From the NCBI RefSeq assembly GCF_018555685.1, contig NZ_JAFLWW010000003.1, positions 496,001 to 560,000 of the forward strand: 64,000 bases of DNA, in the 5' to 3' direction. Position 1 is the stretch's first letter. Each line of letters starts with the position of its first letter. Both the position numbers and the translations under genes were made by a program. The notes under the pieces were generated by a model. The model saw only the letters and a list, made by a program, of their open reading frames with translations. It did no database searches and was not told where the DNA came from. This document shows, one piece after another, positions 6,037 through 34,598 of the stretch. The DNA is from Aminobacter anthyllidis. Its GTDB lineage: Bacteria > Pseudomonadota > Alphaproteobacteria > Rhizobiales > Rhizobiaceae.

Positions 6037-7095
6037 ATGAAGAAGACCGTCGAGACGATCCGGGGCGACAGCGAAGGCCTCGCCTACGAACTCCCGGTCT
6101 ACCATATCTCGGGCACCGCGCCCGATGCCCCTGCGGCCTACATCCAGGCCGCGCTGCATGGCGACGAGCTGCCCGGCGTCGTCGCCATCGACGCGCTGAT
6201 GCCGAAGCTGCGCAAGGCCGAAAACGAGGGACGCGTGCGCGGCAACCTGACAATCGTTCCGCGCGCCAATCCGATCGGCGCCAACCAGCTGCTGTTCGGC
6301 GCCTCGCAGGGCCGCTTCGATCTAGGTACGCGCGTCAACTACAACCGCGATTTTCCGCTGCTCGACAGGCCAGATGTTGCACTCCTGCCCGGGGAAGAGG
6401 TGCCGATGTCGTCCGACCGGCGGCTGAAGGCGCGCCTGCTCAAGCTGTCGCTCGGCCACGACATCGTACTCGACCTGCATTGCGACGACGAGGGTGTCGC
6501 CTATCTCTACGTGCCCGAGGAGCTGTGGCCGGCTATGGCCGACTGCGCCGCCAATATGGGCGTCGACGCCGTCATCCTGTGGGGCGGCAAGTCGGGTTCG
6601 TCCTTCGACGAAGCCTCGCTTCACCCTTATCTCAGGATGCCGCGCAAGGAGGCGAGGCTCGAAAGCCGCGTCATCACGACCGTGGAGTATCGCGGCGTCT
6701 CCGACGTCTACGCCACCGTTGCCGAAGCCGACGCCCAGGGCCTCTACCGCCTTCTGGTCGCGCGTGGCGTGATCGAGGACACCTGGATAGAAACCCAAGA
6801 GGCGTTCGCCGGTGTGGTGGCGCCGATCGACCATATCGAGATGGTGCCCGCGCCTTGCGCCGGCGCGATCCTCTATCACGTCAATCCGGGCGACACGGTC
6901 AAGGCCGGCGCCCATATCGCGACAATCCTGCGCGCGCCCGGCGAGGACGGCGGCAGGGTCGAGGTGCTGGCGCCGCAGGACGGTTTTATCCTGACCCGCC
7001 GCTCGCACCGCGCCACGCGCGCCGGCGACGACCTGGTCAAGCTGGTCGGCGTGGGGCCCAGCAGCGATGCACGGTCAGGCGCGCTGGAGGCGTAG
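6037..7095 (+). CDS. Succinylglutamate desuccinylase/aspartoacylase family zinc hydrolase
   Basis: A 352-residue M14-like metallohydrolase. Zinc ligands are His41 and Glu44 in ALHGDELPG and His148 in VLDLHCDDEG. The C-terminal part (DHIEMVPAPCAGAILYHVNPGDTV onward) looks like a lipoyl/biotinyl-type hairpin common in this AstE/AspA-like subgroup. The family removes acyl groups from N-acylated amino acids and related amides. The substrate is not predictable. It has its own leader region and is followed closely by the P-loop ATPase gene. Confidence 0.88.
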   Translation: MKKTVETIRGDSEGLAYELPVYHISGTAPDAPAAYIQAALHGDELPGVVAIDALMPKLRKAENEGRVRGNLTIVPRANPIGANQLLFGASQGRFDLGTRVNYNRDFPLLDRPDVALLPGEEVPMSSDRRLKARLLKLSLGHDIVLDLHCDDEGVAYLYVPEELWPAMADCAANMGVDAVILWGGKSGSSFDEASLHPYLRMPRKEARLESRVITTVEYRGVSDVYATVAEADAQGLYRLLVARGVIEDTWIETQEAFAGVVAPIDHIEMVPAPCAGAILYHVNPGDTVKAGAHIATILRAPGEDGGRVEVLAPQDGFILTRRSHRATRAGDDLVKLVGVGPSSDARSGALEA

Positions 7096-7129
7096 CGGCC
7101 AGGACGTTCTCACGGAGCTATCGGCACGC

Positions 7130-7669
7130 ATGTTCAATTGCGCAGGTGAAGTGCTGATCCTGACCGGGCCGCCGGGTTCCGGGAAGACAACGACGGCGCG
7201 GGCGCTCGCCAACGAGCCCGGATCCGCGAAGGTCCACCTGCATTCCGACGACTTCTGGCATTTCATCAAGCATGGCGCGATCGGACCCTATCGGCCCGAA
7301 GCCCATGAGCAGAACGCGGTCGTCGTGGACGTACTGGCAAATGCCGCCGAACGTTACGCCCGCGGCCGCTTTTTCGTCATCGTGGACGGCATTGTCGGGC
7401 CGTGGTTCCTGGAACCGTTCAGGAAGATCGCGGCACCGCTGCACTACGTCGTCCTGCGCCCTCCCGTCGATGTCGCCATCCAACGCTGCCAGGAACGCGG
7501 CGGCGACACGTTGACCGATGCCGACACGATCGCAGCGCTCCATCGGCAGCTGTCATCGCTGGGACCTCTCGAACGGAATGTCGTTACGACGGGGGCCCAG
7601 AGCCGCGAGGAAACGCTGGGCATGGTCAGCGAGGCGGTCCGGAGTGGAGCATTTCGCCTGGCGCCGTGA
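7130..7669 (+). CDS. P-loop ATPase / small-molecule kinase-like protein
   Basis: A 179-residue AAA_33-type protein counted from the ATG at 7130, placing the Walker A motif GPPGSGKT at residues 13-20. An alternative start at 7067 would overlap the previous gene and add a basic, uninformative tail. The HSDDFWHFIK segment after the P-loop and VDGIVGPW resemble shikimate/gluconate-kinase-like and zeta-toxin-like phosphotransferases that use a conserved aspartate after the P-loop. The substrate is unknown. No antitoxin candidate precedes it, so I do not call it a toxin. It converges on the DUF1801 gene, ending 13 bases from it. Confidence 0.78.
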   Translation: MFNCAGEVLILTGPPGSGKTTTARALANEPGSAKVHLHSDDFWHFIKHGAIGPYRPEAHEQNAVVVDVLANAAERYARGRFFVIVDGIVGPWFLEPFRKIAAPLHYVVLRPPVDVAIQRCQERGGDTLTDADTIAALHRQLSSLGPLERNVVTTGAQSREETLGMVSEAVRSGAFRLAP

Positions 7670-7682
7670 CCGACGCGAATGC

Positions 7683-8111
7683 TCAGGCGCGCTTCGGCCG
7701 CTTCTGCGCGCGCGCCGCGACAACCGACATGTTGAGCGCCACGGCGGCGCCGATGAGCGCTTTCAACGCGTCCTCGTTGATCTTTTCGCCCTCGTGAATG
7801 TCGATGGCGCGCCTGGTGTTGCCGTCGAGGCTGGAGTTGAACAGGCCTGACGGGTCGTCGAGCGAAGCACCCTTGGCGAAGGTCAGCTTGACCACGCTCT
7901 TGTAGGTCTCTCCAGTGCAGATGATGCCGGCGTGTTCCCAGACGGGAACGCCGCGCCACTTCCACTCCTCGACCACCTCGGGGGCGGCCTGCTTGATCAG
8001 GGCGCGGACCTGAGCGAGTGTCTCGCCGCGCCAGTCGCCCAGTTCCTTGATCCGCGCATCGATCAGTTGCGATGGCGTCGCGCCTTCGCCTGAGCTGCTC
8101 TTGCTGTCCAT
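7683..8111 (-). CDS. DUF1801 (YdhG/YjbR-like) protein
   Basis: A 142-residue protein. Two ATGs lie six bases apart; the second (8111) is preferred because GAGGAG then sits six bases upstream, whereas for 8117 it would be immediately adjacent. The pattern IKQAAPEVVEEWKWRGVPVWEH followed by VVKLTFAKGASL and SLDGNTRRAIDIHEGEKI is typical of DUF1801, a small iron-chaperone-like or general-purpose fold of unknown function. It lies about 100 bases downstream of the DRL-type oxidoreductase on the same strand. Confidence 0.85.
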   Translation of the reverse strand: MDSKSSSGEGATPSQLIDARIKELGDWRGETLAQVRALIKQAAPEVVEEWKWRGVPVWEHAGIICTGETYKSVVKLTFAKGASLDDPSGLFNSSLDGNTRRAIDIHEGEKINEDALKALIGAAVALNMSVVAARAQKRPKRA

Positions 8112-11341: not shown

Positions 11342-11992
11342 ATGCGGAAAATTGGCCTTCTTCTTGCAACGATGCTGGCATTTGCACCTGTTTTGCCCGA
11401 GGTGGCGGTGGCGCAGGAGCGCGTGGAGACGCTGCGCATGCGCCCCGGCGCGACGCAGACGACGGTGCGCGGCATCGTCATCGGCAGGATCAGCGCCTCC
11501 TACCGGCTCGAGGCGCGGGCCGGCCAGCGCATGAGCCTCGACCTCAATTCGCGCAACACCTTCCTCTACTTCAACGTACTCGACCCGCGCGGCCGCGCCA
11601 TCGCCCGCGAGGAAACGCAGTGGGACGGCCGCCTGCCCGCCTCCGGCGTCTACACCATCCAGATTTACCTGGTTCGCGCCGAGGCGCGCCGCAACCGGCC
11701 GGCACCGTTTTCGCTCGACGTCCGCATCGCCGGACGCGGCGAAGGCCCCGGCCCGGCACCAGGGCCGGACCCGGCACCCGGCCCACGTTCGTGGCGTGTC
11801 GTCGGCGTCGCTGCCAACGACGTGCTCAATCTCCGGGAAAGCCCGTCGCCGCGCGGCTTCGTCGTCGCCGAAATTCCGTTCGACGCCAACGGCCTGCGCA
11901 ATCTCGGCTGCCAGGACGGCCAGAGCTGGTGCAAGGTGCGCTATCGCGGCCAGGAAGGCTGGGTCAACGGCCGCTTCCTCAGGCCGGAATGA
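11342..11992 (+). CDS. Secreted SH3-domain protein
   Basis: A 216-residue envelope protein. Residues 1-24 are a signal peptide ending AVA. A beta-sandwich-like region (residues ~30-135: ISASYRLEARAGQRMSLDLN, SGVYTIQIYLVRAEA) resembles inhibitor-of-g-type-lysozyme or pre-peptidase folds. A Gly/Pro linker follows at about 140-156. A C-terminal bacterial SH3 domain (NDVLNLRESPSPRGFVVAEI, two cysteines, then EGWVNGRFL) probably binds peptidoglycan. It is monocistronic, converging on the nadE-like gene at 12015. Function in the cell wall is inferred from domain type only. Confidence 0.82.
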   Translation: MRKIGLLLATMLAFAPVLPEVAVAQERVETLRMRPGATQTTVRGIVIGRISASYRLEARAGQRMSLDLNSRNTFLYFNVLDPRGRAIAREETQWDGRLPASGVYTIQIYLVRAEARRNRPAPFSLDVRIAGRGEGPGPAPGPDPAPGPRSWRVVGVAANDVLNLRESPSPRGFVVAEIPFDANGLRNLGCQDGQSWCKVRYRGQEGWVNGRFLRPE

Positions 11993-12014
11993 TCCGCCCG
12001 AAGCCGGCGCCGGC

Positions 12015-13019
12015 TCAGATCTCGGAAACGGGATCGACCAGCAACGGCCCGCTGTGCAGGTAGCGCGTGGTCTTGCGCTTGGAGGCAATGTCGGTCCACA
12101 CGCGTCCGACCTGCTCGGCGGTCAGCCCCGAAGCACGGCCGACCTCTTCGGCCGCAATGCCGTTGTTGAGCCCGTAAAGGCACAGGTCCATGCGGTCGTA
12201 AGGCAAGGAGAAATAAAACTCCTCCTGCGTCTGCTGCAGCGAATAGGTATCGGTCGTCGGCGGCCGCCGGCGGATTTCCTCGGGCACGCCGAGATGGGCG
12301 GCGAGCTGGTAGACCTGCGACTTGTAGAGATGGGCGATCGGCTTGACGTCGGCGGCACCGTCGCCGTTCTTGACGAAGAAGCCCTGGTCGTATTCCAGCC
12401 GGTTCGGCGTGCCGATGACGGCATAGTTGAGCCGGTCGGCGTGGAAATACTCGACCTGCTTGCGGGTGCGCTGCTTCATGTTGGTGGAGGCGACGATGCC
12501 GAGATAGACATGCGGCGGCATGCGCAGCTTGGTCTGCTTGCCCTCGGGGTCCTGCACCACCAAGGACGAGATGTTGTAGCCGCCCTCGTTGGTCAGCGCG
12601 TTGGCAATCACGATCTTGCACGCCCAGCCGGCACCGTATTCAGGCACGAGCTCGCGGATGAAGGCGTCGCGGCGCTCATAGCAGCCCATCGCCTTGAGCG
12701 TCGGGCCGATGTTCTCGATGACCGCCGATATGCCGAAGGTTTCGGCGACGAGCCGCCCGAGCTGCAGGCTCTCCGGGTCGGAATCGTCCTCCGGCATGAA
12801 CAGGGCAAAGACATTCTTGGCGCCGACCGCGCGTACGGCAAGAGCAGCACTCACGCTCGAATCGACGCCACCCGACAGGCCGAGCACCAGCCCGCGCCGG
12901 CGCAGCGTGCCCGTCAGCTGGCTGCGCAAGGCGGCTGATATCCTCGCGGCCTCGGTTTCAGGATCGATCGTCAGCGTCGCCGCGCCGAAACTGCCGGTTT
13001 GCGCCAGTGGCATGTTCAT
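12015..13019 (-). CDS. Ammonia-dependent NAD+ synthase-like adenylating amide synthase
   Basis: A 334-residue protein of the N-type ATP pyrophosphatase superfamily. The PP-loop LGLSGGVDSS is at about residues 48-57, and GTPNRLEYDQGFFVKNGDGAADVKPIAHLYKSQVYQL matches the NadE core. It has no glutaminase (nitrilase) domain. Its ATG overlaps the stop of the acyl-AMP ligase, making it the last gene of a tightly coupled operon with an AsnB-like protein and an acyl carrier protein. This context suggests amidation of a pathway intermediate rather than, or as well as, housekeeping NAD synthesis. Family assignment is firm; substrate is inference. Confidence 0.85.
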   Translation of the reverse strand: MNMPLAQTGSFGAATLTIDPETEAARISAALRSQLTGTLRRRGLVLGLSGGVDSSVSAALAVRAVGAKNVFALFMPEDDSDPESLQLGRLVAETFGISAVIENIGPTLKAMGCYERRDAFIRELVPEYGAGWACKIVIANALTNEGGYNISSLVVQDPEGKQTKLRMPPHVYLGIVASTNMKQRTRKQVEYFHADRLNYAVIGTPNRLEYDQGFFVKNGDGAADVKPIAHLYKSQVYQLAAHLGVPEEIRRRPPTTDTYSLQQTQEEFYFSLPYDRMDLCLYGLNNGIAAEEVGRASGLTAEQVGRVWTDIASKRKTTRYLHSGPLLVDPVSEI

Positions 13020-14551
13020 TGCGTCGGCTCCATGGATTCGGCGGCGAGACGCCGGCTGACCTTGCCGGTGTCGGTCCTGGGCAATTCGGATCGGAACTCG
13101 ATGATCTTGGGCACCATGAAGTCCTCGAGATGGGCCTGGCAGTGGCGGAGGATTTCACGCTGGCTGAGGTTGGGATCGGACAGCACGATCAATGCGCCGA
13201 TGGCATGGCCGAGGATGGGATCGGGCACGCCGATCACCACCGCCTCGGCGACGCCGGGGCAGGCGTGCAGAACGGCCTCGACCTCCTTGGGCGCGACTTT
13301 TTCGCCGCGCGTCTTGATGATGTCGTCCTTGCGCCCGACGAAATAGAGGAAACCCTCGGCGTCGCGGCGGAACAGGTCGCCGGTGTAGAGCAGCTTTTCC
13401 CAGGGGTTGAAGCCCGGGCGCAGCATGCGGTTGGTGGCTTCCGAGTTCTCCCAGTAGCCCTGCATGACGTGGGGCCCGCGGATGACCAGCTCGCCCGGCG
13501 TGTCGGGCGGCACCGGCTGGCCGAAGTCGTCGACAACGAAGGCTTCGGTGTTGGGGATGGCGATGCCGACCGAGCCGGGGCGCCGGTCGAGTTCCGCCGG
13601 CGGCAAATAGGTGCAGCGCTTGCACTCGGTCAGGCCGTACATGGAATAGAGGCGGACCCCGGTGAACAGTTCGCGCAGCCTGGCGATATGCGCCGGCGGC
13701 AGCGCGGCCGCCGTGTTGGTGACGTAACGCAGGCTGGGCAGGAAGCCCGGCTTGATGTCGCGCATCTGCAGGATCAGCGCCGCCATTGTCGGTACCAGCG
13801 GGAAGCCGGTGACGTTCTCGGCGCGGATGACGTCGAAGATCGCCTGCGGGAAGGAAAACGACTTTTCGAGCACCAGCGTGGCGCCCATCTTGACCGACAT
13901 GATCAGCTGGTAGAGGCCGTAGTCGAAGGCCAGCGGCAGGACGTTGAGGATGATGTCGTCCGCTGTGTTTTCGAGATAGGTGGTGATCGAGCTGGCAGCC
14001 GCCTCGATGTTGCGGTGGGTCATCATCACGCCCTTGGGCCGGCCGGTCGAACCCGAGGTGTAGATCAGCATGGCAAGGTCGACATCGATGCCGCCATGAC
14101 GTGGCGGTTCCGCACTGCCCTGCAGGCATTCTTCGAACGAGACGGCACCTTCTGCTGACTTGCCGCCGGCCGAGGTCGACACGACGATCAGCTCGCCGCC
14201 GTCATTGGCCTCGGTGACGACGGGCAGCAGCCGCGCCTGGGTCAGCACGGCGCGCGCGCGGCAGTTGCCGATGATGAAATCGAGCTTGTCAGCCTTGGTC
14301 GACGGGTTGATCGGACTGAAGACGGCGCCGGCCTTGGCAATGGCAAACACCGACACCGCGGCTTCCCAGCAATTGTCCATGAAGACCAGCACGCGATCGC
14401 CACGGCCGACGCCGAGATCGCCGAGCCTAGCTGCCAGCCGGTCCGACATGCTGTCGAGCTCGGCATAGGTCAGGCGCACGTCGCGGGCAATCAGTGCGGT
14501 CTTGTCGCCCCGCAACCGTGCACTGTCGCGCAAGAATTGCTCCAGTCGCAT
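13016..14551 (-). CDS. Acyl-AMP ligase (acyl-CoA synthetase family), ACP-associated
   Basis: A 511-residue adenylate-forming enzyme. Core motifs are present in order: YTSGSTGRPKG (phosphate loop), YGLTECKR, YTGDLFRRDAEGF, GRKDDIIKTRGEKVAPKEVE and the C-terminal catalytic lysine in PRTDTGKVSRR. The family activates a carboxylic acid with ATP and loads it on CoA or a carrier protein. It starts 18 bases after the acyl carrier protein gene and overlaps the NadE-like gene by four bases. Loading of the adjacent carrier is the simplest role. Similar ligases occur in exopolysaccharide loci of exosortase-containing bacteria, but I see no exosortase here. Confidence 0.92.
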   Translation of the reverse strand: MRLEQFLRDSARLRGDKTALIARDVRLTYAELDSMSDRLAARLGDLGVGRGDRVLVFMDNCWEAAVSVFAIAKAGAVFSPINPSTKADKLDFIIGNCRARAVLTQARLLPVVTEANDGGELIVVSTSAGGKSAEGAVSFEECLQGSAEPPRHGGIDVDLAMLIYTSGSTGRPKGVMMTHRNIEAAASSITTYLENTADDIILNVLPLAFDYGLYQLIMSVKMGATLVLEKSFSFPQAIFDVIRAENVTGFPLVPTMAALILQMRDIKPGFLPSLRYVTNTAAALPPAHIARLRELFTGVRLYSMYGLTECKRCTYLPPAELDRRPGSVGIAIPNTEAFVVDDFGQPVPPDTPGELVIRGPHVMQGYWENSEATNRMLRPGFNPWEKLLYTGDLFRRDAEGFLYFVGRKDDIIKTRGEKVAPKEVEAVLHACPGVAEAVVIGVPDPILGHAIGALIVLSDPNLSQREILRHCQAHLEDFMVPKIIEFRSELPRTDTGKVSRRLAAESMEPTQ

Positions 14552-14569
14552 TGCCCCCTCCCAGGCGCC

Positions 14570-14857
14570 TCAGGCGGCGCCAGCTGCCTGCTTGATCGGC
14601 TGCGCCGCTGCCTGCTTGGCCTCGATGAAGGCGGCGATCCGCACCAGCGAGTCGAGATTGGCCGGAACGATGTCGGAATCCGCCATCTCAAGCCCGAACT
14701 GGTCCTCGATATAGGTCACCAGCTCGAGCACGCCGGTGGAGTCGATCACGCCGCTTTCGATCAGCGAAACGTCGTCGGCCAGTGCGTAGGACGTGTCCCC
14801 GAACAGGAAGTTGTCGATGATGAAGGCTTTGACCGTGTCCTTGATCTGCTGCGTCAT
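14570..14857 (-). CDS. Stand-alone acyl/aminoacyl carrier protein
   Basis: A 95-residue carrier protein. The phosphopantetheine attachment serine is Ser40 in the motif SGVIDSTGVLELV. The acidic helix LVTYIEDQFGLEMADSDI follows, and an Ala-rich tail replaces the usual short C-terminus. It is distinct from a fatty-acid AcpP, which would carry DSLDTVEL-type residues. It lies between the AsnB-like gene (22-base gap) and the acyl-AMP ligase (18-base gap), so it probably tethers the substrate of this pathway. Confidence 0.92.
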   Translation of the reverse strand: MTQQIKDTVKAFIIDNFLFGDTSYALADDVSLIESGVIDSTGVLELVTYIEDQFGLEMADSDIVPANLDSLVRIAAFIEAKQAAAQPIKQAAGAA

Positions 14858-14879
14858 GCTCTCTCCTTTTGGTCCATTG

Positions 14880-16823
14880 TCAGGCAGCCTCGGTAACGTC
14901 GGACCTCGATCCGGCGAATGACCGGTTCCACAGCTGCGTCGACAGGATGCCGACGAAGGCGGCGTTGTCCCGGAAGCCCGATACGGCTTGCTGCCGGCAC
15001 TTTTCGGTCAGCTTCCTTACCGTTGAAACGTCGAAGAATCCTGAATCGGCGATCGCCTCGGCGCTCATCGCCTCGCGCAGCCACACCGGCTCGCTGGCAC
15101 CGACGAAGGATTGCGAATCCGGGGCGCGGTAGGGCTGCTTGACGCGCTGGCCGATCGATGGTGGCAGCAGGTCCTTGGTCGCCTCGCGCAATATGTGCTT
15201 TTCGACCAGCCCCTTGAGCTTCATGCCGGGCGGCAGCCGGCTTGCAAACTCGACCAGCCGATGGTCGAGGAACGGGAAGCGCCCTTCGATGCCGTGCGCC
15301 ATGGCCATGCGGTCGCCCTGGCTCGACAGGATATAGCCGGGCAGCAAAAAGCGGCTTTCGAGATATTGCGCCTGATGCAGCGGGTGCCAGCGGGCGAAAC
15401 GCTCGGGTAGCCGCGAGGCGAGTTCCGCGGCGGCATCGTAGGATGCGAGCTTCGCGCGCAGGTCCCCTGAGAAGAACAGCTTTGCCGCGGCGGTGTTGCG
15501 CATGCGCGGACGGTGCGAATAGAGCGGATCGTCGAGGCTGTCCTTGCCGGCACCGAAGAAGGCGGCGAGATAGGCGGCCGACTGTTTCTGCAGCCCAGGC
15601 AGGTAGGGATAGAGCTTGCGGAACAGGTGCGGCCGGCTGGTCGAGCCGGGCTGGCGGTCGCAGAAGCGCCGCACCAGCGTTTCCTTGAAGATGTCGTAGC
15701 CGGCGAAGACCTCGTCGGCGCCCTCGCCGGTCAGCACCACCTTGATGCCCTTGGCGCGGACAAGCCCGGAAAGCTGGTAGAGCGGCGCTGGTGCGGTGCG
15801 AATGACCGGGCGCTCGGTGGCGTTGATCACCTCGGGGAAGATCGAAGCGATGTCGCCGGGGCCGACATTCACCGCGCTGTGGTGCGAGCCGATGGCAAGG
15901 GCCATCTCTTCCTGGAATTCGCTTTCGTCATGCTCGGCACTGTCGAAGGTCACCGAGAAGGTGCGCAGCCCGCCAGCGGCCATCGGCGCTGCCAGCGCCG
16001 AGACGATCGATGAATCGAGGCCGCCCGAGAGATAGGAGCCGACGGTCACGTCGGCGCGCATGCGGATGCGCGTTGCATCGGTGAGCAGCGCCCTGAGTTC
16101 TTCCGCCGCCGCCTTTTCGTCGCGCGGAGCGCGGTGCGTTTCGGCGTCGGGGAAATCGAGCTGCCAGTAGGGACGCGTGACGAGCCCGCCTTTGTCGGCG
16201 ATCATGATGTGTGCGGGTTCGAGCTCGTAGACGTTCTTGAAAGCGGTGCGCGGCGCGATCGGCGCCCACAGCGTGAATATCTGGTCGAGCGCGATTTCGT
16301 CGAGTTCGGCGGTGAAGCCCGGCACCTTGGCAAACGCCTTGACCTCGGAAGCAAAAAACAAGGTACCGCGCACCTCGGTGTAGAACAGCGGCCGCACCCC
16401 CATCCGGTCGCGAGCCAGGAACATGCGCTGCCGCGGCGCGTCCCAGATGGCAAAGGCGAAGTCGCCATTCATCACGTCGACGCAGTCCGGGCCCATCTCC
16501 TCGTAGAGATGCAGGATCACCTCGGTATCACTGCCGGTGCGGAACCGGCGGCCCCGCGCCTTCAATTCGTCGCGCAACTCGACATAGTTGAATATCTCGC
16601 CGTTGAAGGCGATGTGGAGATCGCCCGAGGCGCTGGCCATCGGCTGCTGTCCATCGCCAAGCCCAACGACCGACAGGCGCGCATGGCCAAGGCCCGCCGA
16701 TGGCGCGACGAAGATGCCTTGCTCGTCGGGGCCTCTGTGGGCGATGCTGCCGGTCATCCGCCGCAGCAGCATTTCAGCTGCCGCCGGCTCGACACCTCCG
16801 AGATACCCGACAAAACCACACAT
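14880..16823 (-). CDS. asnB: Asparagine synthase (glutamine-hydrolysing)-like amidotransferase
   Basis: A 647-residue class II glutamine amidotransferase. Cys2 (MCGFVGYLGG) is the glutaminase nucleophile, RLSVVGLGDGQQPM and FNGEIFNYVELR belong to the glutaminase domain, and SYLSGGLDSSIVSAL is the synthetase PP-loop. It is the first gene of the operon asnB-acp-ligase-nadE-like. In such contexts AsnB homologues often form amides or lactams on small molecules or sugars rather than asparagine. The start codon has only a weak upstream purine tract. The promoter region shared with the methyltransferase is described at 16824-17008. Confidence 0.92.
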   Translation of the reverse strand: MCGFVGYLGGVEPAAAEMLLRRMTGSIAHRGPDEQGIFVAPSAGLGHARLSVVGLGDGQQPMASASGDLHIAFNGEIFNYVELRDELKARGRRFRTGSDTEVILHLYEEMGPDCVDVMNGDFAFAIWDAPRQRMFLARDRMGVRPLFYTEVRGTLFFASEVKAFAKVPGFTAELDEIALDQIFTLWAPIAPRTAFKNVYELEPAHIMIADKGGLVTRPYWQLDFPDAETHRAPRDEKAAAEELRALLTDATRIRMRADVTVGSYLSGGLDSSIVSALAAPMAAGGLRTFSVTFDSAEHDESEFQEEMALAIGSHHSAVNVGPGDIASIFPEVINATERPVIRTAPAPLYQLSGLVRAKGIKVVLTGEGADEVFAGYDIFKETLVRRFCDRQPGSTSRPHLFRKLYPYLPGLQKQSAAYLAAFFGAGKDSLDDPLYSHRPRMRNTAAAKLFFSGDLRAKLASYDAAAELASRLPERFARWHPLHQAQYLESRFLLPGYILSSQGDRMAMAHGIEGRFPFLDHRLVEFASRLPPGMKLKGLVEKHILREATKDLLPPSIGQRVKQPYRAPDSQSFVGASEPVWLREAMSAEAIADSGFFDVSTVRKLTEKCRQQAVSGFRDNAAFVGILSTQLWNRSFAGSRSDVTEAA

Positions 16824-17008
16824 ACGCTGGACTCTGTTCCGCTAGTGCGACGAGCGCACGTGTTTAGCGCAGGTTAACCAATGGCAGGAAAGCACACTTC
16901 CGATATCAAAACACATCACAAAGCCGATAGTCTTCGGTTTCGCGGCCAGAGATACGATAGTAGATATCGATATGAGGTTCTTTGCGTAATGACTTGTATG
17001 AACAAGTC
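16824..17008. promoter_or_regulatory. Divergent promoter region between biosynthetic operon and methyltransferase
   Basis: About 185 bases, clearly more AT-rich than its flanks toward the right end, separating asnB (minus strand) from the methyltransferase (plus strand). It contains a 10-bp palindrome ATATCGATAT (16964-16973), a short GTGCG-N5-CGCAC repeat (16845-16859) and, at the right edge, a long inverted repeat reported separately. The arrangement suggests co-regulation of both directions, which is inference. Confidence 0.55.
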
Positions 17009-17010
17009 AT
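16989..17010. repeat. 22-bp inverted repeat (9-bp arms) at the methyltransferase start
   Basis: Perfect arms ATGACTTGT (16989-16997) and ACAAGTCAT (17002-17010) flank the spacer ATGA. The right arm includes the first two bases of the ATG at 17009. It could be a dimeric-regulator operator or, in RNA, a hairpin hiding the start codon. Its length and symmetry are similar to lux-type boxes, but I recognise no specific regulator consensus. Confidence 0.75.
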
Positions 17011-17797
17011 GTTGATGACAATCGTGCCTGACAGAAGCATTGCCCGGTTGACGATCCAAGGCACTAGGGTTGTCATGGGCAGGGCAAGGGACTTGGCGAG
17101 GGCAACAATGCATATCGTTGAGAACAGCGGCGGCAAATCGGGAATAGCGCTGCACAGGTTCATGGACATCGAGCTCGAACTGGGGCCCGACGTGCTTGTC
17201 CCGCGCGAGGAAACAGAAATTCTCGGCCGTGCCGCGATCGGCATCCTCAACGGCCGCGAGCCTGATATCAGGGTGATCGACATGTGTTGCGGTTCCGGCA
17301 ATCTCGGACTGGCGATCGCCAGCAAGGTGCCGGGCGCGCGGGTGTGGAGCGCCGACCTGACCGACAGCACCGTCGCCACCGCCCGCCGAAATGCCGACCG
17401 TCTCGGCGTTGCCGACCGGGTGACGATCGCCCAGGGCGATCTGTTCGGCGCGTTCGACGGGCTCGATCTCGCCGGATCCATGGACCTCGTGGTCTGCAAT
17501 CCGCCCTACATATCGTCGGCCCGCCTGGAAGGCGACCGCAGCGAGTTGCTTGCATCCGAACCCAGGGAGGCATTCGACGGCGGACCCTATGGCCTGTCCA
17601 TCCACCAGCGGCTCATCCGCGATGCGGCGGCATTTCTGAAGCCGGGCGGGTGGCTGGCCTTCGAATTCGGCGAAGGCCAGGACCGCCAGGTGGCGGCGCT
17701 GCTTGCCAGGGCACGCGCCTACGCGCCGGCGGAATTCGTCGCCGACGGCGCCAAGACACCGCGCGTGGCCATCGTCCGCAAACTCGACCCCGCGTGA
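17009..17797 (+). CDS. PrmC/HemK-like SAM-dependent methyltransferase
   Basis: A 262-residue class I methyltransferase counted from the ATG at 17009; a TTG at 16982 and an ATG at 17015 are alternatives and no start has a good ribosome binding site. Visible motifs are VLVPREETEIL (the PrmC-type pre-motif), DMCCGSGNLGLAI (SAM-binding motif I) and NPPYI (catalytic motif of N/Q methyltransferases). Housekeeping PrmC normally sits beside prfA, which is absent here. Context next to the carrier-protein operon suggests a secondary-metabolite or protein-modifying role. Substrate unknown. Confidence 0.85.
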   Translation: MLMTIVPDRSIARLTIQGTRVVMGRARDLARATMHIVENSGGKSGIALHRFMDIELELGPDVLVPREETEILGRAAIGILNGREPDIRVIDMCCGSGNLGLAIASKVPGARVWSADLTDSTVATARRNADRLGVADRVTIAQGDLFGAFDGLDLAGSMDLVVCNPPYISSARLEGDRSELLASEPREAFDGGPYGLSIHQRLIRDAAAFLKPGGWLAFEFGEGQDRQVAALLARARAYAPAEFVADGAKTPRVAIVRKLDPA

Positions 17798-17876
17798 CCG
17801 GGAGTTCGAACTTCACCCTTCCTAGATGTTTCCCACCTAATCCATTGCTGCCGTGACATGACCGAGGCTTCGCCCG

Positions 17877-18995
17877 ATGCCTGAAATTCGTCCATTGCAG
17901 GCCGCCGATCTCGCGGTCGTCGCAGACATGTTCCAGCGTGTGCTGCGCAAGCGCCGCACGCCCACGCCCGCCTCCCTTCCCGGCTACCTCCAGCGGCTCT
18001 ATCTCGACTCCACGGATGGCACGGCTGGATCGCCGTCGCTTGTCCATGTCGCCGACGACGGCCAGATATCGGGCTTCATCGGCGTCACCTCGCTGCCCAT
18101 GCGCTTCAACGACAAGAAGCTGAATGCCTCGATCTGTGGCTCGCTGATGGTCGACGAGGACCAGCGCAACGACCTGTCAGGCGCAAGGCTGCTCAAGGCG
18201 TTTCTCGCCGGCCCGCAGGATCTTTCGTTCAGCGAGACGGCGAGCGACGTCACCGCCAGCATGTGGACGACGCTGCGCGGTTCGATCCTGCCGCAATACA
18301 GCCTCGACTGGATCAAGGTGTTCAAGCCGGCTGCCTTTGCGGTTGCCGGCGCCAGGCAACGGCTGCCCGTTGCGCGCTTTGGTGCCCCGTTGGCCCGCGC
18401 CGTCGATGCCTGCCTCGGCCTTCGCCGCAGCGGCGGCGAATTTTCACGCTGGTTCGGCGCCGGCGATGCGACGGCATCGCAAGGCCGCTATACGGTTTCG
18501 GACATCGATGCCGACGGCTTCGCCGGATTGCTCGGCAAATTCACCTCGCGCTTCGCCATTCATCCGGATTGGGACGAGCAGGTGCTGTCCCGCGTCATGT
18601 CGGATGCCTCGACCAAAAAGGACTATGGCGAAATTTTCCGCTGCACGGTGGCTGCGCGCACCGGGGCCGTCATCGGGGCCTTTGTCTATTTTGGCCGGCC
18701 CGGCGACATCGGCCACGTCCTGCAGGTCCTGGCGTTGCCCGGCCAGGCAGGTGCCGTGATCGACTGCCTGATCAACCATGCCGCCGCTGCAGGCCTCGCC
18801 GGGATCAGGGGCAGAACCCAGCCGGCATTGCTGGAAGCAATGCTCGGTAGGCGGATCATCTTCATCAACGTCAACTCGACGGTCGTGCATTCCCGCGATC
18901 CCGAACTCGTGCGGCAATTCCAGGCCGGCAACGGCTTTTTCAACGGGCTGGTTGGGGAGCATTGGAGCCGGATCTTCGGCGACCACTTCGACTGA
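17877..18995 (+). CDS. Double-GNAT-fold acyltransferase-like protein
   Basis: A 372-residue protein. The N-terminal part (MPEIRPLQAADLAVVADMFQRVLRK, then SLVHVADDGQISGFIGVTSLPM) is a GNAT fold. The C-terminal half (IFRCTVAARTGAVIGAFVYFGRPGDIGHVLQVLALPGQAGAVIDCLINHAAAAGLAGIRGR) looks like a second, divergent GNAT-like domain. It is about 80 bases downstream of the methyltransferase on the same strand and may share its promoter. It could acylate the product of the divergent carrier-protein operon. No close family is recognised. Confidence 0.7.
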   Translation: MPEIRPLQAADLAVVADMFQRVLRKRRTPTPASLPGYLQRLYLDSTDGTAGSPSLVHVADDGQISGFIGVTSLPMRFNDKKLNASICGSLMVDEDQRNDLSGARLLKAFLAGPQDLSFSETASDVTASMWTTLRGSILPQYSLDWIKVFKPAAFAVAGARQRLPVARFGAPLARAVDACLGLRRSGGEFSRWFGAGDATASQGRYTVSDIDADGFAGLLGKFTSRFAIHPDWDEQVLSRVMSDASTKKDYGEIFRCTVAARTGAVIGAFVYFGRPGDIGHVLQVLALPGQAGAVIDCLINHAAAAGLAGIRGRTQPALLEAMLGRRIIFINVNSTVVHSRDPELVRQFQAGNGFFNGLVGEHWSRIFGDHFD

Positions 18996-19016
18996 CGGCT
19001 GGGTGGTCGGCCTGAA

Positions 19017-21365
19017 CTAGAATGCGTAGGACAGGACGTCGCCGGCCTGGCTGCTCATTGGCCCGAAGCGGCAGGCATTCGGCACCGACTTTTCCGCGCA
19101 GTAGCGATTGACGGCACGCGTGGTCGTGCCGCTGAGGACGCCGGTGACGGGTCCTTTGTAGAAGCCGGCCTGCTTGAGCTGCTGCTGTGCCAGGTAGATG
19201 TAGCCGTTCGGATGGGTGGTTCGCATCATGCGGATCAGCGACTGGCGCTGTTCCGCAGAGAGTTCGTGCATGCGCGCGGCGATCGACTGGTAGTTCTGGC
19301 GGCCGGAGCCTGCGGCAGCAAACAGCATTTCCTCGACAAGGCGGTCGCCACGCGACAGCCACGGCGACACGCCCGCGATCAGTTGCTCGGCGCGTTTCGG
19401 ATCGGCCTTGATGAAGGTCGTTCGGCCATAGCGGCGGCCGTCGCGATAGTAGCTGATCAGGTGCCGGGCCGCCGCGACGTTGCCGCTGCCCGCGGCCTGT
19501 TCGAGCAGCGCCACCGCTGCCTTGGCGTCGCGCTTGGTGCCCATGCCGTAGAGCATGGCATCGGCCAGCGGGATGACGGCATCGTCCAGCCCGGTCGCTT
19601 CGGCCTGGCGCAAGGCTGCGACCCCATCGGCCGGCTTGCCGGCATTGCGCAGCAGGCTCTCCGACAGAGCAGACCCCAGGATGAGCAGGCCGTAGGGATC
19701 GCCCGCCTCCGCCGCCTGGCGATAGTAGCCGGCGGCTCTCTTGCCGTTGCTCTGCAACAGCTTGCCTTCCCGAAAGAGGTCGCCGAGCCTGATCAGCCCT
19801 TGCGTCCGTCCGAGCGAGGCAGCCTCCGCATATTCGCGCATTGCGGCCTGGACGTCGGGTGGGCCGCCATCACCCCGGCTCAGCAGGTCGCCCATCACGA
19901 CATGCGCCTCGGCTTCGCCGCTCTCGGTCGCAGCCTTGACCATGGCCCGGCCTGTGGCAATGTCTTGCGCTGTGCCCTGCCCGCGCGCCACCATTGCGCC
20001 GGCACGGACGGCCCCGATGACGTCGCCGAGCCCTGCGGCCTGGCGGTAGTAGCCGAGCGCCTTGGGCAGGTCCACGGCGACCGTCATGCCGTCGCTATAG
20101 AAGTCGCCGAGCCGCACCAGCGCCTCGACCTCATTGAGGCTCACAGCGCGCTCGTAGGCCGCGACAGCCGCATCGCCATCGACGTCGCCCGACTCCGGTT
20201 CACGCAAAAGGTCGCCAAGGCTGATCAGCGCCTGCGGGTTGCCGGCATCGGCGAACCGCCGGACGATGTCGCGCCCGCCCGAAACGTCGCGCAAGGTGCC
20301 CAACCCATGCGCCGTCATCTCGCCTGCCCGCAAGGCGGCGCGCGTGTTGCCCGCCTCGGCGGCGCGCTTGTAGTAGTCAAGGCCAGCGCCGGCATCGGTC
20401 GCCACCGGCGACTGCACCACGCCGCTGTAGACATCGCCAAGGAACGTCAACGCTTCGGCGTCGCCCGCATCGGCGAGGCTCTTGATCGAGGCCAGCCCGC
20501 CTTCGACGTCCTGGCGGGTGCCCTGGCCACGGAACGTCAGTTCGGCGACGCGCAGCTTGCCGAATTGTTGTCCAGCCTGCGCAGCCTTGTCGTAGAACTC
20601 GAAAGCCTTGACGTAATCGGGCTTGCCGGCGCGTCCACTGCCGTAGAGATCGGCAAGCCGCAGCAAGGCGTCGGCATGTCCGAGAGCCGCCGCCTTGGCA
20701 TAAGCTGTTTCCGCCTGCTCCGCGTCCAACGCACCGGCATCGGCGTCGTTCATCAGGTCGCCGAGCGAAACGAGCGCGTGCATGTTGCCGCGATCGGCAA
20801 GCGAGCGCACCAGCGCTAGCCCGGCCTCCCGGTCCCTGGCGATGCCCTGCCCGCGCGCCAGCATCTCGCCGCTGCGCAGGATGCCTGTTTCGTTGCCCGC
20901 CGCGGCAGCGCGGCGGTAATAATCGTAGGCCCGCGGCAGGTCGAGCGGGATCGCCTGGCTGTCGGCGTGACTATAGAGACCGCCAAGCGAGGCGAGCGCT
21001 GCACCATCGCCGGCCGATGCCACCTCCTCGATGGCCGACAGGCCGGCGGTGATATCCCGTTCGGTGCCTTCGCCCAGCACGCGCATTTCGCCGACCCGCA
21101 ACCGTGCTATGGCGCTGCCGGCCTCCGCCGCCTGGCGGTAGTAGTCGAACGCCTTCGCCGGATCGCGGTTGGCGTTGCCGGCATTGCTGTAGAGATCGCC
21201 GAGCCGCAGCAACGCATCGGCGTTGACGGCGCGCTCCGAGGTGGCTCCGCCCGATGTCGACGACGCGCCTGCCTCGGGCGCAGTTTCCGCCGACATGGCG
21301 GTGCCCGCCGAGAGTGCGACGAACACCGTCATCAGCGCCACATGGCAGATACGCGACAATGCCAA
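19017..21365 (-). CDS. Periplasmic Sel1/TPR-repeat scaffold protein with C-terminal peptidoglycan-binding-like region
   Basis: A 782-residue protein with a signal peptide (cleavage after TAMSA, about residue 26). Residues ~48-640 are about 16 Sel1-like repeats arranged as a higher-order unit: GDLYS...AFDYYRQAAEAG, then RVGEM..GQGT..D..AGLA.I..LADAG, then GDLL..AY.KAA.LG. The C-terminal 130 residues end with LKQAGFYKGPVTGVLSGTTTRAVNRYC, a peptidoglycan-binding-like motif. AlgK- and PelB-type repeat scaffolds serve exopolysaccharide export. It is the downstream paralogue of the gene at 21398, separated by 32 bases. Confidence 0.85.
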   Translation of the reverse strand: MALSRICHVALMTVFVALSAGTAMSAETAPEAGASSTSGGATSERAVNADALLRLGDLYSNAGNANRDPAKAFDYYRQAAEAGSAIARLRVGEMRVLGEGTERDITAGLSAIEEVASAGDGAALASLGGLYSHADSQAIPLDLPRAYDYYRRAAAAGNETGILRSGEMLARGQGIARDREAGLALVRSLADRGNMHALVSLGDLMNDADAGALDAEQAETAYAKAAALGHADALLRLADLYGSGRAGKPDYVKAFEFYDKAAQAGQQFGKLRVAELTFRGQGTRQDVEGGLASIKSLADAGDAEALTFLGDVYSGVVQSPVATDAGAGLDYYKRAAEAGNTRAALRAGEMTAHGLGTLRDVSGGRDIVRRFADAGNPQALISLGDLLREPESGDVDGDAAVAAYERAVSLNEVEALVRLGDFYSDGMTVAVDLPKALGYYRQAAGLGDVIGAVRAGAMVARGQGTAQDIATGRAMVKAATESGEAEAHVVMGDLLSRGDGGPPDVQAAMREYAEAASLGRTQGLIRLGDLFREGKLLQSNGKRAAGYYRQAAEAGDPYGLLILGSALSESLLRNAGKPADGVAALRQAEATGLDDAVIPLADAMLYGMGTKRDAKAAVALLEQAAGSGNVAAARHLISYYRDGRRYGRTTFIKADPKRAEQLIAGVSPWLSRGDRLVEEMLFAAAGSGRQNYQSIAARMHELSAEQRQSLIRMMRTTHPNGYIYLAQQQLKQAGFYKGPVTGVLSGTTTRAVNRYCAEKSVPNACRFGPMSSQAGDVLSYAF

Positions 21366-21397
21366 CTCCTTAACAGCCGTCGGCCAAGCGACGCCGT

Positions 21398-23578
21398 TCA
21401 GTTCTGTACATTTTCTCCTGCTGCCGGGTTCTCCGCGTCGACCGCCTTCAGGTAATATTCCGCCGCCTTGCCGCCGTCGGCCGGAACGCCCTTGCCGTCG
21501 CGATAGACGTCGCCGAGCCTGAGCAGGGCATCGGCGCGACCCTGCCGGGCTGCATTTTCGTAGGCAGCGACGGCGGCATCACCGTCGACCGGTCCCACCG
21601 CACCGGACAGATGGAGGTCGCCAAGCACGACATAGGCATAGGGGTCGCCTGATATGCCGACCTGCCTGACAAGCTCGAGACCCGCCGGAATGTCCTGGCG
21701 CGTGCCTTCGCCCCGTGCGGTCATCTCGCCCTGGCGCAGCCTGCCGGTCTCGTCGCCGGCCATGCTGGCCCGGCGGTAATAATCGAACGCCTTGGCAGGG
21801 TCGGCCGGTATCGTGCCGCCAAGCCGATAGATGTCGCCGATGCGCACAAGCGCGTCCGGGCGTCCCAGTGCTGCTGCCTTCTCATAAGCCAGCACTGCCC
21901 CCGACGCGTCGACCTTGCCCGTCGAGCCATCGCCGATCAGCGCCGCGAACGACATCAGCGCATCGCTGTTGCCGGCGTCGGCTACGGCCTTGACCAGCCG
22001 CAGGCCGCCCGCGACGTCCCTGGCAGTGCCCTGGCCACGCACCATCATCTCGCCGGCGTGCACCGCTCCCATGACGCTGCCGGCATCGGCGGATTTGCTG
22101 TAATAGCCGAACGCCGTTGCCGGATTGGCCGGCAGCAGCCCGCCGATACCGCGCTGATAGAGCCCGCCGAGCAGGTTCATCGCGTCCGCGTCGCCGTCGT
22201 CGGCGAGCGAATTCATCTGGGCAAGGCCGGCGGCGACGTTGCGATCGGTGCCCTGCCCGAGAACCGTCATTTCGCCGACGCGCAGCTTGCCGGCCAGATT
22301 GCCGGCCTGCGACGCCCTGACGTAGTAGGCGAAGGCCTTGGGTGGATCGGAAGCAATCGCGCCGTTGCGGCTGTAAAGGTCGCCGAGCCTGACCAGCGCA
22401 TCGCTGTGACCGAGCGACGCGGCCTTTTCGTAGGATGTGACGGCAGCGGGAAGGTCGACGGGGGCGACCGCCGCATCGCTGAGCAGGTCGCCGAGCGCGA
22501 TCAGCGCGAAGGTGTCGCCGTGGTCGGCAAGACCGGTCAGCATCGCCCGCCCGGCCTGGTAGGATTGGCTGGTGCCGCGACCCCGCGCCAGCATTTCGCC
22601 GGTGCGCAGGATGCCGGTCTCGTCACCGCTGTCGGCGGCACGGCGGAAATAGCCGAAGGCCTTGCCGAGATCGATCGCGATGACGCCGCCATCGGCGCGG
22701 CTGTAGAGCGAACCGAGCAGGACGAGCCCGGCGGGGTTGCGCGTGCGCGCCACCACCTCCTCGATCATCGCCAGCCCGGCTTGGACGTCCTGCGTCGCCC
22801 CTTGCCCGATGGCGATCATCTCGCCGACACGCAGCTTGGCCATGTCATAGCCGAGATCGGCTGCCTTGCGGTAATAGTCGAGCGCCTTTTCCGGCTCCAT
22901 CGCGACCATGCCCTGGCCGCCGGGCCGGTACAGGTCGCCAAGCAGCACCAGCGCCTCGGGGTTGCCGGCATCGGCGAGCGCGCCGATCATCGCCAGGCCC
23001 TTGCCGGTGTCGCGGGCGACGCCTTGCCCACGCGCCAGCATCTCGCCGACACGCAGCTTGCCGTCGGCGTTGCCGGCCTTGGCGGCCTGGTCGTAGAACA
23101 GGTAGGCCCGCTTCGGGTCGGCGGCAACGACCCTGCCCTCGCGGTACAGGTCGCCAAGCCGCATCAAGGCTTCCGAGCTGCCCATGCTCGCCGCCTGCAG
23201 GTAAAGCTCGGATGCCGCGAAGGGGTCGGCCGGCGCGTCCTTGACGACGCCGATCAGGTCCGACGGCGAGATGACCGCGTAGATCGCGGCGGGTCGGCCG
23301 GGATTGTCCAGGCCGCGATAATAGGCGAGCGCCGCTTCGGCCGCGGCAGCCGTCGTCTTGCCGTCGCGGTAGAGGTCGCCCAGGGCGATGTACGACGCCG
23401 CAAGCGCCTGCGTGAAACCATCGCGGGCATCCGCCTTGGATTTGGTAGCCTGGATGGCGTGGGGTTCGGCCGGGGACGCAAGGCCCAGCGCCGGCGACGT
23501 TGGAGCCTGTCCGGCGGGACTGGCTTCAGCTATTCCCGACACAACAGCGCTGGCAACCAACAACCAGCCGATACGCAT
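21398..23578 (-). CDS. Periplasmic Sel1/TPR-repeat scaffold protein (paralogue)
   Basis: A 726-residue protein with a short signal peptide (MRIGWLLVASAVVSGIAEA). Nearly all of the rest is the same composite Sel1 repeat as in the neighbour at 19017, with motifs such as KLRVGEMLARGQGVARD and ALVLLGDLYR recurring. It lacks the C-terminal peptidoglycan-binding-like part. The pair is a tandem duplication that has diverged. Position next to polymerase-like and flippase genes supports a role in assembly or export of a polysaccharide; direct function is not known. Confidence 0.85.
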   Translation of the reverse strand: MRIGWLLVASAVVSGIAEASPAGQAPTSPALGLASPAEPHAIQATKSKADARDGFTQALAASYIALGDLYRDGKTTAAAAEAALAYYRGLDNPGRPAAIYAVISPSDLIGVVKDAPADPFAASELYLQAASMGSSEALMRLGDLYREGRVVAADPKRAYLFYDQAAKAGNADGKLRVGEMLARGQGVARDTGKGLAMIGALADAGNPEALVLLGDLYRPGGQGMVAMEPEKALDYYRKAADLGYDMAKLRVGEMIAIGQGATQDVQAGLAMIEEVVARTRNPAGLVLLGSLYSRADGGVIAIDLGKAFGYFRRAADSGDETGILRTGEMLARGRGTSQSYQAGRAMLTGLADHGDTFALIALGDLLSDAAVAPVDLPAAVTSYEKAASLGHSDALVRLGDLYSRNGAIASDPPKAFAYYVRASQAGNLAGKLRVGEMTVLGQGTDRNVAAGLAQMNSLADDGDADAMNLLGGLYQRGIGGLLPANPATAFGYYSKSADAGSVMGAVHAGEMMVRGQGTARDVAGGLRLVKAVADAGNSDALMSFAALIGDGSTGKVDASGAVLAYEKAAALGRPDALVRIGDIYRLGGTIPADPAKAFDYYRRASMAGDETGRLRQGEMTARGEGTRQDIPAGLELVRQVGISGDPYAYVVLGDLHLSGAVGPVDGDAAVAAYENAARQGRADALLRLGDVYRDGKGVPADGGKAAEYYLKAVDAENPAAGENVQN

Positions 23579-33653: not shown

Positions 33654-34598
33654 ATGACGGCGTCGGCGACTTCGGTATCAGTCATCATCTGCGCCTACGC
33701 CGACAATCGTCGCGAGCAGCTTCAGCGCGCCATCGCCTCTGTCGTCGCCCAACGAAGCAAAGCGACCGAGATCATCGTGGTCATCGACCACAACATGCCG
33801 CTGTGGGCGTATTTCTTTGCCACCTATCCGGCCGTGACCGTCATCGCGAACGAAGGCGCACGCGGTCTTTCGGGTGCCCGCAACACCGGGGTCAGGCGGG
33901 CTAGCGGCGACATTCTGGCCTTCCTCGACGACGACGCTGTCGCGGCCCCCGACTGGCTGGAAAAGATGCTGCCGCACTATCGCAATCCGTCGGTCATCGG
34001 CTTGGGTGGGCGCGTGCTGCCGATGTGGCAGGTCGATCGCCCGCGCTGGTTTCCCGAGGAGTTCCAGTGGGTCGTCGGCTGCAGCTATCGCGGCCAACCC
34101 GAAAAAGTCGAGCCGGTGCGCAATCCCATCGGCTGCAATATGTCGTTCCGCCGCAACATATTCGATCTGACCGGTGGATTCCGCGAAGGCATCGGCCGCA
34201 CAGCGGCCGATGCTGCCGGCTGCGAGGAGACGGAGCTTTGCATCCGCGCCCTGCAGGCCATTCCCGGCTCGCTCATCCTGTACGATCCTGACATGAGCGT
34301 GCACCATCAGGTGACGGCCGAGCGTGCGGGCTGGCGCTATTTCCGCAGGCGTTGCCTCGCCGAAGGCCGCTCCAAGACCCAGGTCGTCAACGCGGTGGGT
34401 GCGCTGGATGGACTGTCCAGCGAACAGCGCTACGTCATGCGCGTCCTGCCTGCGGGTGTCCTGCGCGGAGTTGGCGATGCCGTGCTGAAGTTCGACATAT
34501 GGGGCCTGGCCCGCGCCGCCGGCATCTGCTTCGGGCTCGGCTACACGACGATGGGCTATGTCGGCGCCCGGCTGAGCCTTGCCAGGAGGCAAGTATGA
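33654..34598 (+). CDS. Family 2 glycosyltransferase
   Basis: A 314-residue GT2 enzyme. VSVIICAYADNRREQLQRAIASV begins the GT-A fold, VIANEGARGLSGARNTGVRRA and ILAFLDDDAVAAPDW carry the sugar-nucleotide and DDD metal-binding residues, and EETELCIRALQ resembles the catalytic ED motif. The hydrophobic C-terminus could associate with the membrane. It starts nine bases after the previous GT2 gene and overlaps the next by four bases (ATGA), so the three are translationally coupled. Confidence 0.9.
   Translation: MTASATSVSVIICAYADNRREQLQRAIASVVAQRSKATEIIVVIDHNMPLWAYFFATYPAVTVIANEGARGLSGARNTGVRRASGDILAFLDDDAVAAPDWLEKMLPHYRNPSVIGLGGRVLPMWQVDRPRWFPEEFQWVVGCSYRGQPEKVEPVRNPIGCNMSFRRNIFDLTGGFREGIGRTAADAAGCEETELCIRALQAIPGSLILYDPDMSVHHQVTAERAGWRYFRRRCLAEGRSKTQVVNAVGALDGLSSEQRYVMRVLPAGVLRGVGDAVLKFDIWGLARAAGICFGLGYTTMGYVGARLSLARRQV

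Follow-up and report, generated by a model that had tools for sequence, protein, structure and literature searches.

A stretch of 64,000 nucleotides from Aminobacter anthyllidis (the window in what follows; G000:C23:496001-560000 of an assembly of 6.7 Mb, with G000 standing for the genome that carries it and the other L and G numbers for loci and genomes of the comparison sets) contains a compact group of genes for an AsnB-like glutamine amidotransferase/synthetase, a stand-alone acyl or peptidyl carrier protein, an AMP-forming acyl or aminoacyl ligase and a NadE-like ATP pyrophosphatase. On balance, we read these four genes as a conserved, portable biosynthetic cassette, and the explanation that best accounts for the whole is that an amide-bearing acid would be built on the carrier protein and then off-loaded from it. 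All four open reading frames (ORFs) are intact, exhibit a coding-type composition (third-position G+C of 0.83-0.87) and form one operon on the minus strand. The gene for the AsnB-like protein (14880-16823, 647 amino acids) is followed by those for the carrier protein (14570-14857, 95 amino acids), the ligase presumed to load the carrier (13016-14551, 511 amino acids) and the NadE-like protein (12015-13019, 334 amino acids), with gaps of 22 and 18 bases and finally an overlap of four bases. An initial annotation made from the sequence alone had given the same arrangement, and the identities that it proposed for the four products, including Ser40 of the carrier, agree with matches to TIGR01536, PF00550, PF00501 and NF002048.

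Conservation and co-occurrence of the four genes

A search of the genome collection with the NadE-like protein yielded 23 loci of close relatives; another 26 loci from genomes and two from plasmids brought the set to 51. As the loci were fetched via the NadE-like protein, its presence is given by construction and that of the other genes is independent information; the loci themselves are not independent of each other, many of them being kin, some of the fetched stretches are short (L016, L055, L063 and L067), and the gene tables of the plasmid records are incomplete. Genes for the carrier, the ligase and the NadE-like protein are present in 51 of the 51 loci, and 50 contain the AsnB gene within the fetched stretch. 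The exception is L070 (genome G295), where an AsnB protein of 70% identity is encoded on another contig. All 23 close-relative loci share the order AsnB-carrier-ligase-NadE as well as a gene for a GNAT-like protein described below, and 22 of them also have a gene for a PrmC-like methyltransferase; the AsnB and GNAT frames are broken in L013, and the AsnB gene is cut by the contig end in L016. Other orders also occur, namely NadE-AsnB-ligase-carrier, AsnB-ligase-carrier-NadE and carrier-ligase-AsnB-NadE. In four additional plasmid records, from Nitratireductor, Azospirillum, Mesorhizobium and Rhizobium, the four genes stand side by side according to the records' own annotation, and the gene set is also present on megaplasmids of Sinorhizobium meliloti.

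Conserved co-occurrence of the families across genomes, which the initial annotation had proposed as a check, was indeed found. Members of the NF002048 family were detected in 20 out of 297 genomes from the host's order and in 15 out of 398 from the phylum, the two samples overlapping. The ligase, at a threshold of E ≤ 1e-110 that misses distant ligases (e.g., those of L078-L080 with 34-37%), was detected in exactly the same 20 genomes of the order, and AsnB-like proteins of at least 600 bits were found in these 20 of the 297 genomes only. AsnB homologues in 20 genomes of the order that do not carry the cassette reach at most 442 bits. The chance of two sets of 20 among 297 genomes agreeing in this way amounts to 1.6e-31 under the assumption of independent genomes, which they are not; the agreement of NadE-like protein, ligase and AsnB covers 13 genera. 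Chance clustering of the four genes is ruled out by this order-wide pattern. Moreover, the distances between loci are correlated across the four families (r 0.84-0.96; 49 rows, with L013, L016 and L070 omitted), and the catalytic motifs are retained in at least 94% of the aligned rows: the carrier serine within DST (52 rows), the ATP motif of the ligase, Cys2 of the glutaminase and SGG.DSS of the synthetase domain of AsnB (51 rows), and SGG.DSS of the NadE-like protein. Methanosarcina acetivorans, a control in the genome searches, has a match to NF002048, and no match to the NadE-like protein at 1e-20 was obtained among 50,697 phage records.

Some individual loci deserve mention. On a Nitratireductor plasmid (L088:6328-16011), genes for a hypothetical protein that is GNAT-like by our own model, AsnB, carrier, ligase and NadE-like protein lie beside genes for a Mu-type transposase, TniB and TniQ, suggesting mobility of the set. 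On plasmids of S. meliloti (L053) and Rhizobium sp. ACO-34A (L091), the cassette and minCDE are no more than about 3 kb apart. The interrupted AsnB and GNAT-like frames of Rhizobium sp. RCAM05350 (L013:11048-12146 and 6187-8010) reflect either decay or a sequencing error.

The NadE-like protein

The NadE-like protein belongs to the family NF002048/PRK00876 (524 bits, cut-off 313), which bears the label "NAD(+) synthase" in NCBIfam. The initial annotation had allowed for the case that it is the sole, housekeeping NAD synthase of its genome. This is ruled out: another PF02540 protein is encoded in all 27 cassette-bearing genomes (at G000:C1:935309-936070 in the genome studied here). In 24 of the 27, this other protein matches nearly the whole PF02540 model; in G211, G218 and G545 the match is partial (positions 5/6-166 of 242, 80-83 bits) and lies in frames of 695-826 amino acids, which would fit long glutamine-dependent NAD synthases.

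The cassette protein resembles NadE (PF02540, TIGR00552) in its fold and motifs. NadE-like proteins retain the ATP loop (SGGxDS) and the GDGAAD region and thus exhibit the motif of PP-loop ATP pyrophosphatases. A structure model with a mean predicted local distance difference test score (pLDDT) of 80, falling below 50 at residues 207-220 in a part of the presumed active site, has the NadE fold, the best Foldseek match being 2e18 (template modelling score, TM, 0.81 by target length). An extra stretch, roughly residues 112-170, is conserved among the cassette proteins and absent from the two NH3-dependent NadE proteins of cassette-bearing genomes with which they were aligned (row L086, a wrong-frame translation, was disregarded). 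Fold, ATP motifs and family name would all be compatible with a mere second NAD synthase whose linkage to the other genes is incidental. We consider this interpretation very unlikely, because every one of the 27 genomes has another such enzyme, because the linkage to ligase and AsnB outlasts changes in gene order and because the extra stretch is missing in the two NH3-dependent enzymes compared. We tentatively propose, with less than even confidence, that NF002048 proteins are not NAD synthases but form amides or amidines within a mobile pathway that operates on a carrier protein, and that AsnB and the NadE-like protein would work in series on a carrier-bound acid, with a last slot filled by exchangeable GNAT-like proteins or thioesterases.

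AsnB, carrier protein, ligase and the possible substrate

The AsnB-like protein, in which the synthetase motif reads SGGLDSS and the glutaminase cysteine is N-terminal Cys2, matches TIGR01536 with 501 bits (cut-off 267). Its nearest solved sequences are the hydroxyamidotransferase 7ylz and then AsnB 1ct9. In a phylogenetic tree, a single origin of the cassette AsnB proteins was recovered in 18% of the bootstrap trees, which does not establish it. In three genomes without the cassette (L113, L114 and L120), AsnB homologues of 37-41% identity are encoded beside another small carrier protein, with no ligase and no separate NadE-like gene of the cassette type alongside; ORFs neighbouring L113 and L114 resemble parts of polyketide synthases by eye.

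The carrier protein matches PF00550 with 22.9 bits (cut-off 20.8), its presumed phosphopantetheine attachment site, Ser40, being part of an IDSTG motif, and peptidyl carrier proteins are its nearest solved sequences (E 1.9e-9). The ligase yields 326 bits with PF00501, 472 bits with TIGR03098 (below the cut-off of 592) and 294 bits with TIGR01733 (below the cut-off of 317). The nearest solved sequences are adenylation domains of nonribosomal peptide synthetases (NRPS), followed by oxalate-, fatty-acid- and malonate-CoA ligases. Lys497 and Arg312 are invariant. The A4-like position, which by GrsA numbering we take to be the equivalent of the aspartate binding the alpha-amino group, carries Asp in 42 of 52 ligases and Gly, Ser or Ala in the remaining ten. 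Because this residue varies, the ligase need not be specific for amino acids; its substrate may be a small acid that possibly bears another acidic group and may differ between loci. The initially suggested activation of an acid on the carrier, followed by formation of an amide, would fit the conserved catalytic motifs, and the NadE-like protein may contribute a nitrogen-transfer step.

A gene for a PrmC/HemK-like methyltransferase with a CNPPY motif (16982-17797, plus strand) starts 158 bases from the AsnB gene and is transcribed divergently from the operon. Its product scores above the cut-off with TIGR00536 (144 bits, cut-off 115.5) and below it with TIGR03534 (180 bits, cut-off 199), the latter match beginning only at model position 53. 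It is ruled out as the housekeeping PrmC by this partial, sub-threshold match and by a better, full-length PrmC match elsewhere in the genome (G000:C26:14056-14814). Homologues are encoded in 32 of the 51 related loci.

These features also bear on a more specific alternative, in which aspartate or glutamate would be loaded by the ligase and amidated in its side chain by AsnB while bound to the carrier; the PrmC-like protein would N-methylate this amide, and an amino sugar would receive the aminoacyl group through the GNAT-like protein. The proximity of the ligase to amino-acid adenylation domains among its solved relatives and its TIGR01733 score, albeit below the cut-off, are in line with this scheme, as are the closeness of the carrier to peptidyl carriers, the prevalence of Asp at the A4-like position and the invariant Arg312, which could hold a carboxylate (again by GrsA numbering), and homology to PrmC, an enzyme that acts on glutamine. 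Nevertheless, we regard it as improbable: the ten ligases with Gly, Ser or Ala do not conform to it, the NadE-like protein is left without a role, and 19 of the 51 fetched stretches lack a PrmC-like gene.

Candidates for the off-loading step

The gene following that for the PrmC-like protein at a distance of 79 bases (17877-18995, plus strand) encodes a protein of 372 amino acids that is a candidate carrier-unloading acyltransferase with a predicted double-GNAT fold. No Pfam hit at 0.001 and no solved relative were found by sequence, and a match to PF13527 is weak (E 0.013). An AlphaFold2 model (pLDDT 84.6) retrieved tandem GNAT acetyltransferases and N-myristoyltransferases in Foldseek (E of about 2e-12, TM 0.43-0.57).

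The GNAT-like gene is present at 40 of 56 cassette loci and a thioesterase gene at ten; no locus has both and six have neither, so that one of the two occurs in 50. Neither was present in 20 control stretches taken from 20 of the 27 cassette-bearing genomes. The mutual exclusivity corresponds to a Fisher p of 2e-7, uncorrected for kinship, and is to be read in the light of how the loci and models were obtained: 23 of the 56 loci stem from a single close-relative search, the thioesterase was sought only after the GNAT-like gene had been seen to be missing, and the models were built from a 37-row GNAT alignment and from seven of the ten thioesterase loci, respectively. Pfam recognizes PF00975 in six of the ten (L063, L064, L071, L074, L075 and L077), L058 matches thioesterase-bearing NCBIfam models, and L065, L069 and L073 were identified by our own model alone. 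Sampled thioesterase loci fall at three places of the AsnB tree, i.e., the L058 group, L073, which pairs with the GNAT locus L025, and L075. In L063, L071 and L074 the thioesterase lies behind an AMP-binding domain with a carrier-like GGDSL stretch in between (by eye). Judged by their distribution, the GNAT-like protein and the thioesterase look like interchangeable off-loading enzymes, and because they replace each other the product probably stays carrier-bound until the last step.

In view of these results, the initial annotation is largely supported by the conservation of the four families and by the presence of another NAD synthase. It missed the divergent PrmC-like and GNAT-like genes that recur with the operon elsewhere, and its statement that no thioesterase is present fails for related loci, where all ten thioesterase genes occur without a GNAT-like gene.

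Acceptor: polysaccharide or free product

Polysaccharide genes were detected by phmmer with 18 queries, an insensitive method, at ten of 26 genome loci versus two of 20 controls (Fisher p 0.043). The cassette or the GNAT/PrmC pair adjoins such genes in Rhizobium, Chelativorans, S. meliloti, Azospirillum, Shinella and Devosia, the adjacency in Rhizobium, Chelativorans and Devosia being based in part on resemblance to annotated loci and on visual inspection. Beyond the GNAT/PrmC pair, families that recur as neighbours among 41 loci include glycosyltransferase-like (9 loci), initiating-sugar-transferase-like (8 loci), ABC-transporter (11 loci) and dehydrogenase (6 loci) ones. A glycan is likely to be the acceptor in some lineages only, and a general role of the cassette in polysaccharide formation is weakened by the ratio of loci to controls.

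It is conceivable, if rather unlikely, that the cassette instead makes a small molecule that is free, either an acyl amide or the amide of an amino acid, with the GNAT-like protein acylating a small amine or the thioesterase freeing the acid. The 16 of 26 loci at which the simple phmmer search, which misses some genes, detected no polysaccharide gene are consistent with this possibility, and the same applies to the bare five-gene set beside transposition genes on the Nitratireductor plasmid and to the thioesterases behind AMP-binding domains in L063, L071 and L074. Set against it are the recurring glycosyltransferase-like and sugar-transferase-like neighbours, although transporter and dehydrogenase families recur too, and the polysaccharide clusters that adjoin the cassette in Rhizobium, Sinorhizobium and Azospirillum.

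Proposed pathway

Returning to the assembly of an amide-bearing acid on the carrier, we infer the chemical steps, their order and the acceptor as follows. A small carboxylic acid would be adenylated by the ligase and attached to the phosphopantetheine arm of the carrier protein. Carboxylates of this acid or of a partner molecule would then be amidated by AsnB with glutamine and by the NadE-like protein with ammonia as nitrogen source, and in loci that have it the PrmC-like protein might methylate the amide so formed or a nitrogen related to it. The carrier-bound acyl group would then be off-loaded onto an amine or a hydroxyl by the double-GNAT protein or, elsewhere, by the thioesterase. In lineages such as Rhizobium, Sinorhizobium, Azospirillum, Devosia and Shinella, the acceptor would likely be a sugar of a nearby surface polysaccharide.

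Several points weigh against this scheme. It offers no explanation of why two amide-forming enzymes should be needed. The thioesterase model was derived post hoc from seven of the ten loci, and kinship of the loci further affects the apparent exclusivity. Six loci have neither off-loading candidate, among them L089, where a GNAT gene directly behind NadE was missed by our own model, and L076 and L078-L080, which lie outside the host's order. At the Shinella locus L054, the GNAT-like gene is accompanied, at a distance of a few kb, by a gene for an alpha/beta-hydrolase that belongs to a different family (Hydrolase_4). Variation at the A4-like position means that substrates may differ between loci, the PrmC-like gene is not part of every stretch, and with polysaccharide genes at only ten of 26 loci the acceptor may not be a glycan.

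If the proposed pathway is correct, proteins that bear the annotation NAD synthase are part of another pathway, and a function can be assigned to a gene set on the megaplasmids of S. meliloti, a species with good genetics. The cassette would then also represent a compact module whose off-loading step was swapped in evolution, and a separate class of small pathway whose common form lacks assembly lines of polyketide synthases or NRPS, giving rise to a new surface-glycan substituent or metabolite. It also hints that bacteria associated with plants and soil have a decoration or metabolite that probably bears an amide.

Comparison with known systems

We classify the cassette as a variant of pathways in which acyl groups are activated on carrier proteins and AsnB-type enzymes form amides. 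The AsnB fold is employed outside asparagine synthesis in other pathways, too: OxyD of oxytetracycline biosynthesis is an AsnB-type amide synthetase acting on CoA- or carrier-bound acids, and WbpS and WbtH are sugar uronamide synthetases; unlike the cassette, these pathways are not known to contain the set of ligase, carrier and NadE-like protein. Similarly, BtrI, BtrJ and BtrH of butirosin biosynthesis comprise a stand-alone carrier, a ligase and an acyltransferase that decorate a sugar amine, but the ligase is of another family, a decarboxylase takes part there, and no AsnB/NadE pair is known from that pathway. A text search of open-licence papers found no literature on the four-gene combination, in agreement with the initial suggestion that it may be undescribed.

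Named models close to the ligase and the AsnB-like protein come from XrtA/PEP-CTERM loci, in which an AMP-forming ligase likewise accompanies an AsnB-type amidotransferase. One might therefore regard the cassette as the amidotransferase, ligase and carrier part of an XrtA/PEP-CTERM exopolysaccharide system. TIGR03098 is indeed the best model for the ligase and TIGR03108 the second for AsnB, and a neighbour in L076 resembles the XrtA-associated ATPase TIGR03015 (275 bits, below the cut-off of 324.5) in a genome, G513, that has an exosortase. However, the ligase (472 of 592 bits) and AsnB (433 of 817 bits) both remain below the curated cut-offs, the cassette includes a NadE-like protein, and exosortase (PF09721), with no match at 1e-5 in the genome studied here, was not found in 24 of the 27 cassette-bearing genomes and was found in three. 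Membership in the XrtA system was rejected on the basis of the scores and the exosortase distribution, and we attach hardly any probability to it. Passages of two papers mention enzymes of similar type in polysaccharide clusters: an exosortase-type amidotransferase is among transposon hits in a cluster for a cell-associated polysaccharide of Sphingomonas (PMC11340318), and a conserved cluster for exopolysaccharide in floc-forming bacteria includes two genes for asparagine synthetase (PMC9012009); these passages do not mention a NadE-like protein.

Genetic environment in the window

The nearest relatives of the NadE-like protein are from Aminobacter (93-98%). No sigma-70-type promoter match was obtained in 11900-19100, and the window contains neither Rfam matches nor tRNA genes. 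Genes for a GH16 protein, a FemAB/GNAT-like protein, two GT2 proteins and two membrane proteins are situated about 7-20 kb from the cassette. Two adjacent genes (19017-23578) encode long Sel1-repeat proteins of 782 and 726 amino acids, and such a pair also adjoins the cassette in the four Aminobacter loci (L003-L006). Between the Sel1-repeat genes and the GH16 gene, 23740-25635 and 25632-28130 encode two large proteins in which 11 and 12 hydrophobic stretches, respectively, are recognizable; they have no Pfam match at 0.001 and could serve in polysaccharide export or polymerization. A single ORF of 776 amino acids (34352-36682) combines glycosyltransferase 2 and polysaccharide deacetylase domains.

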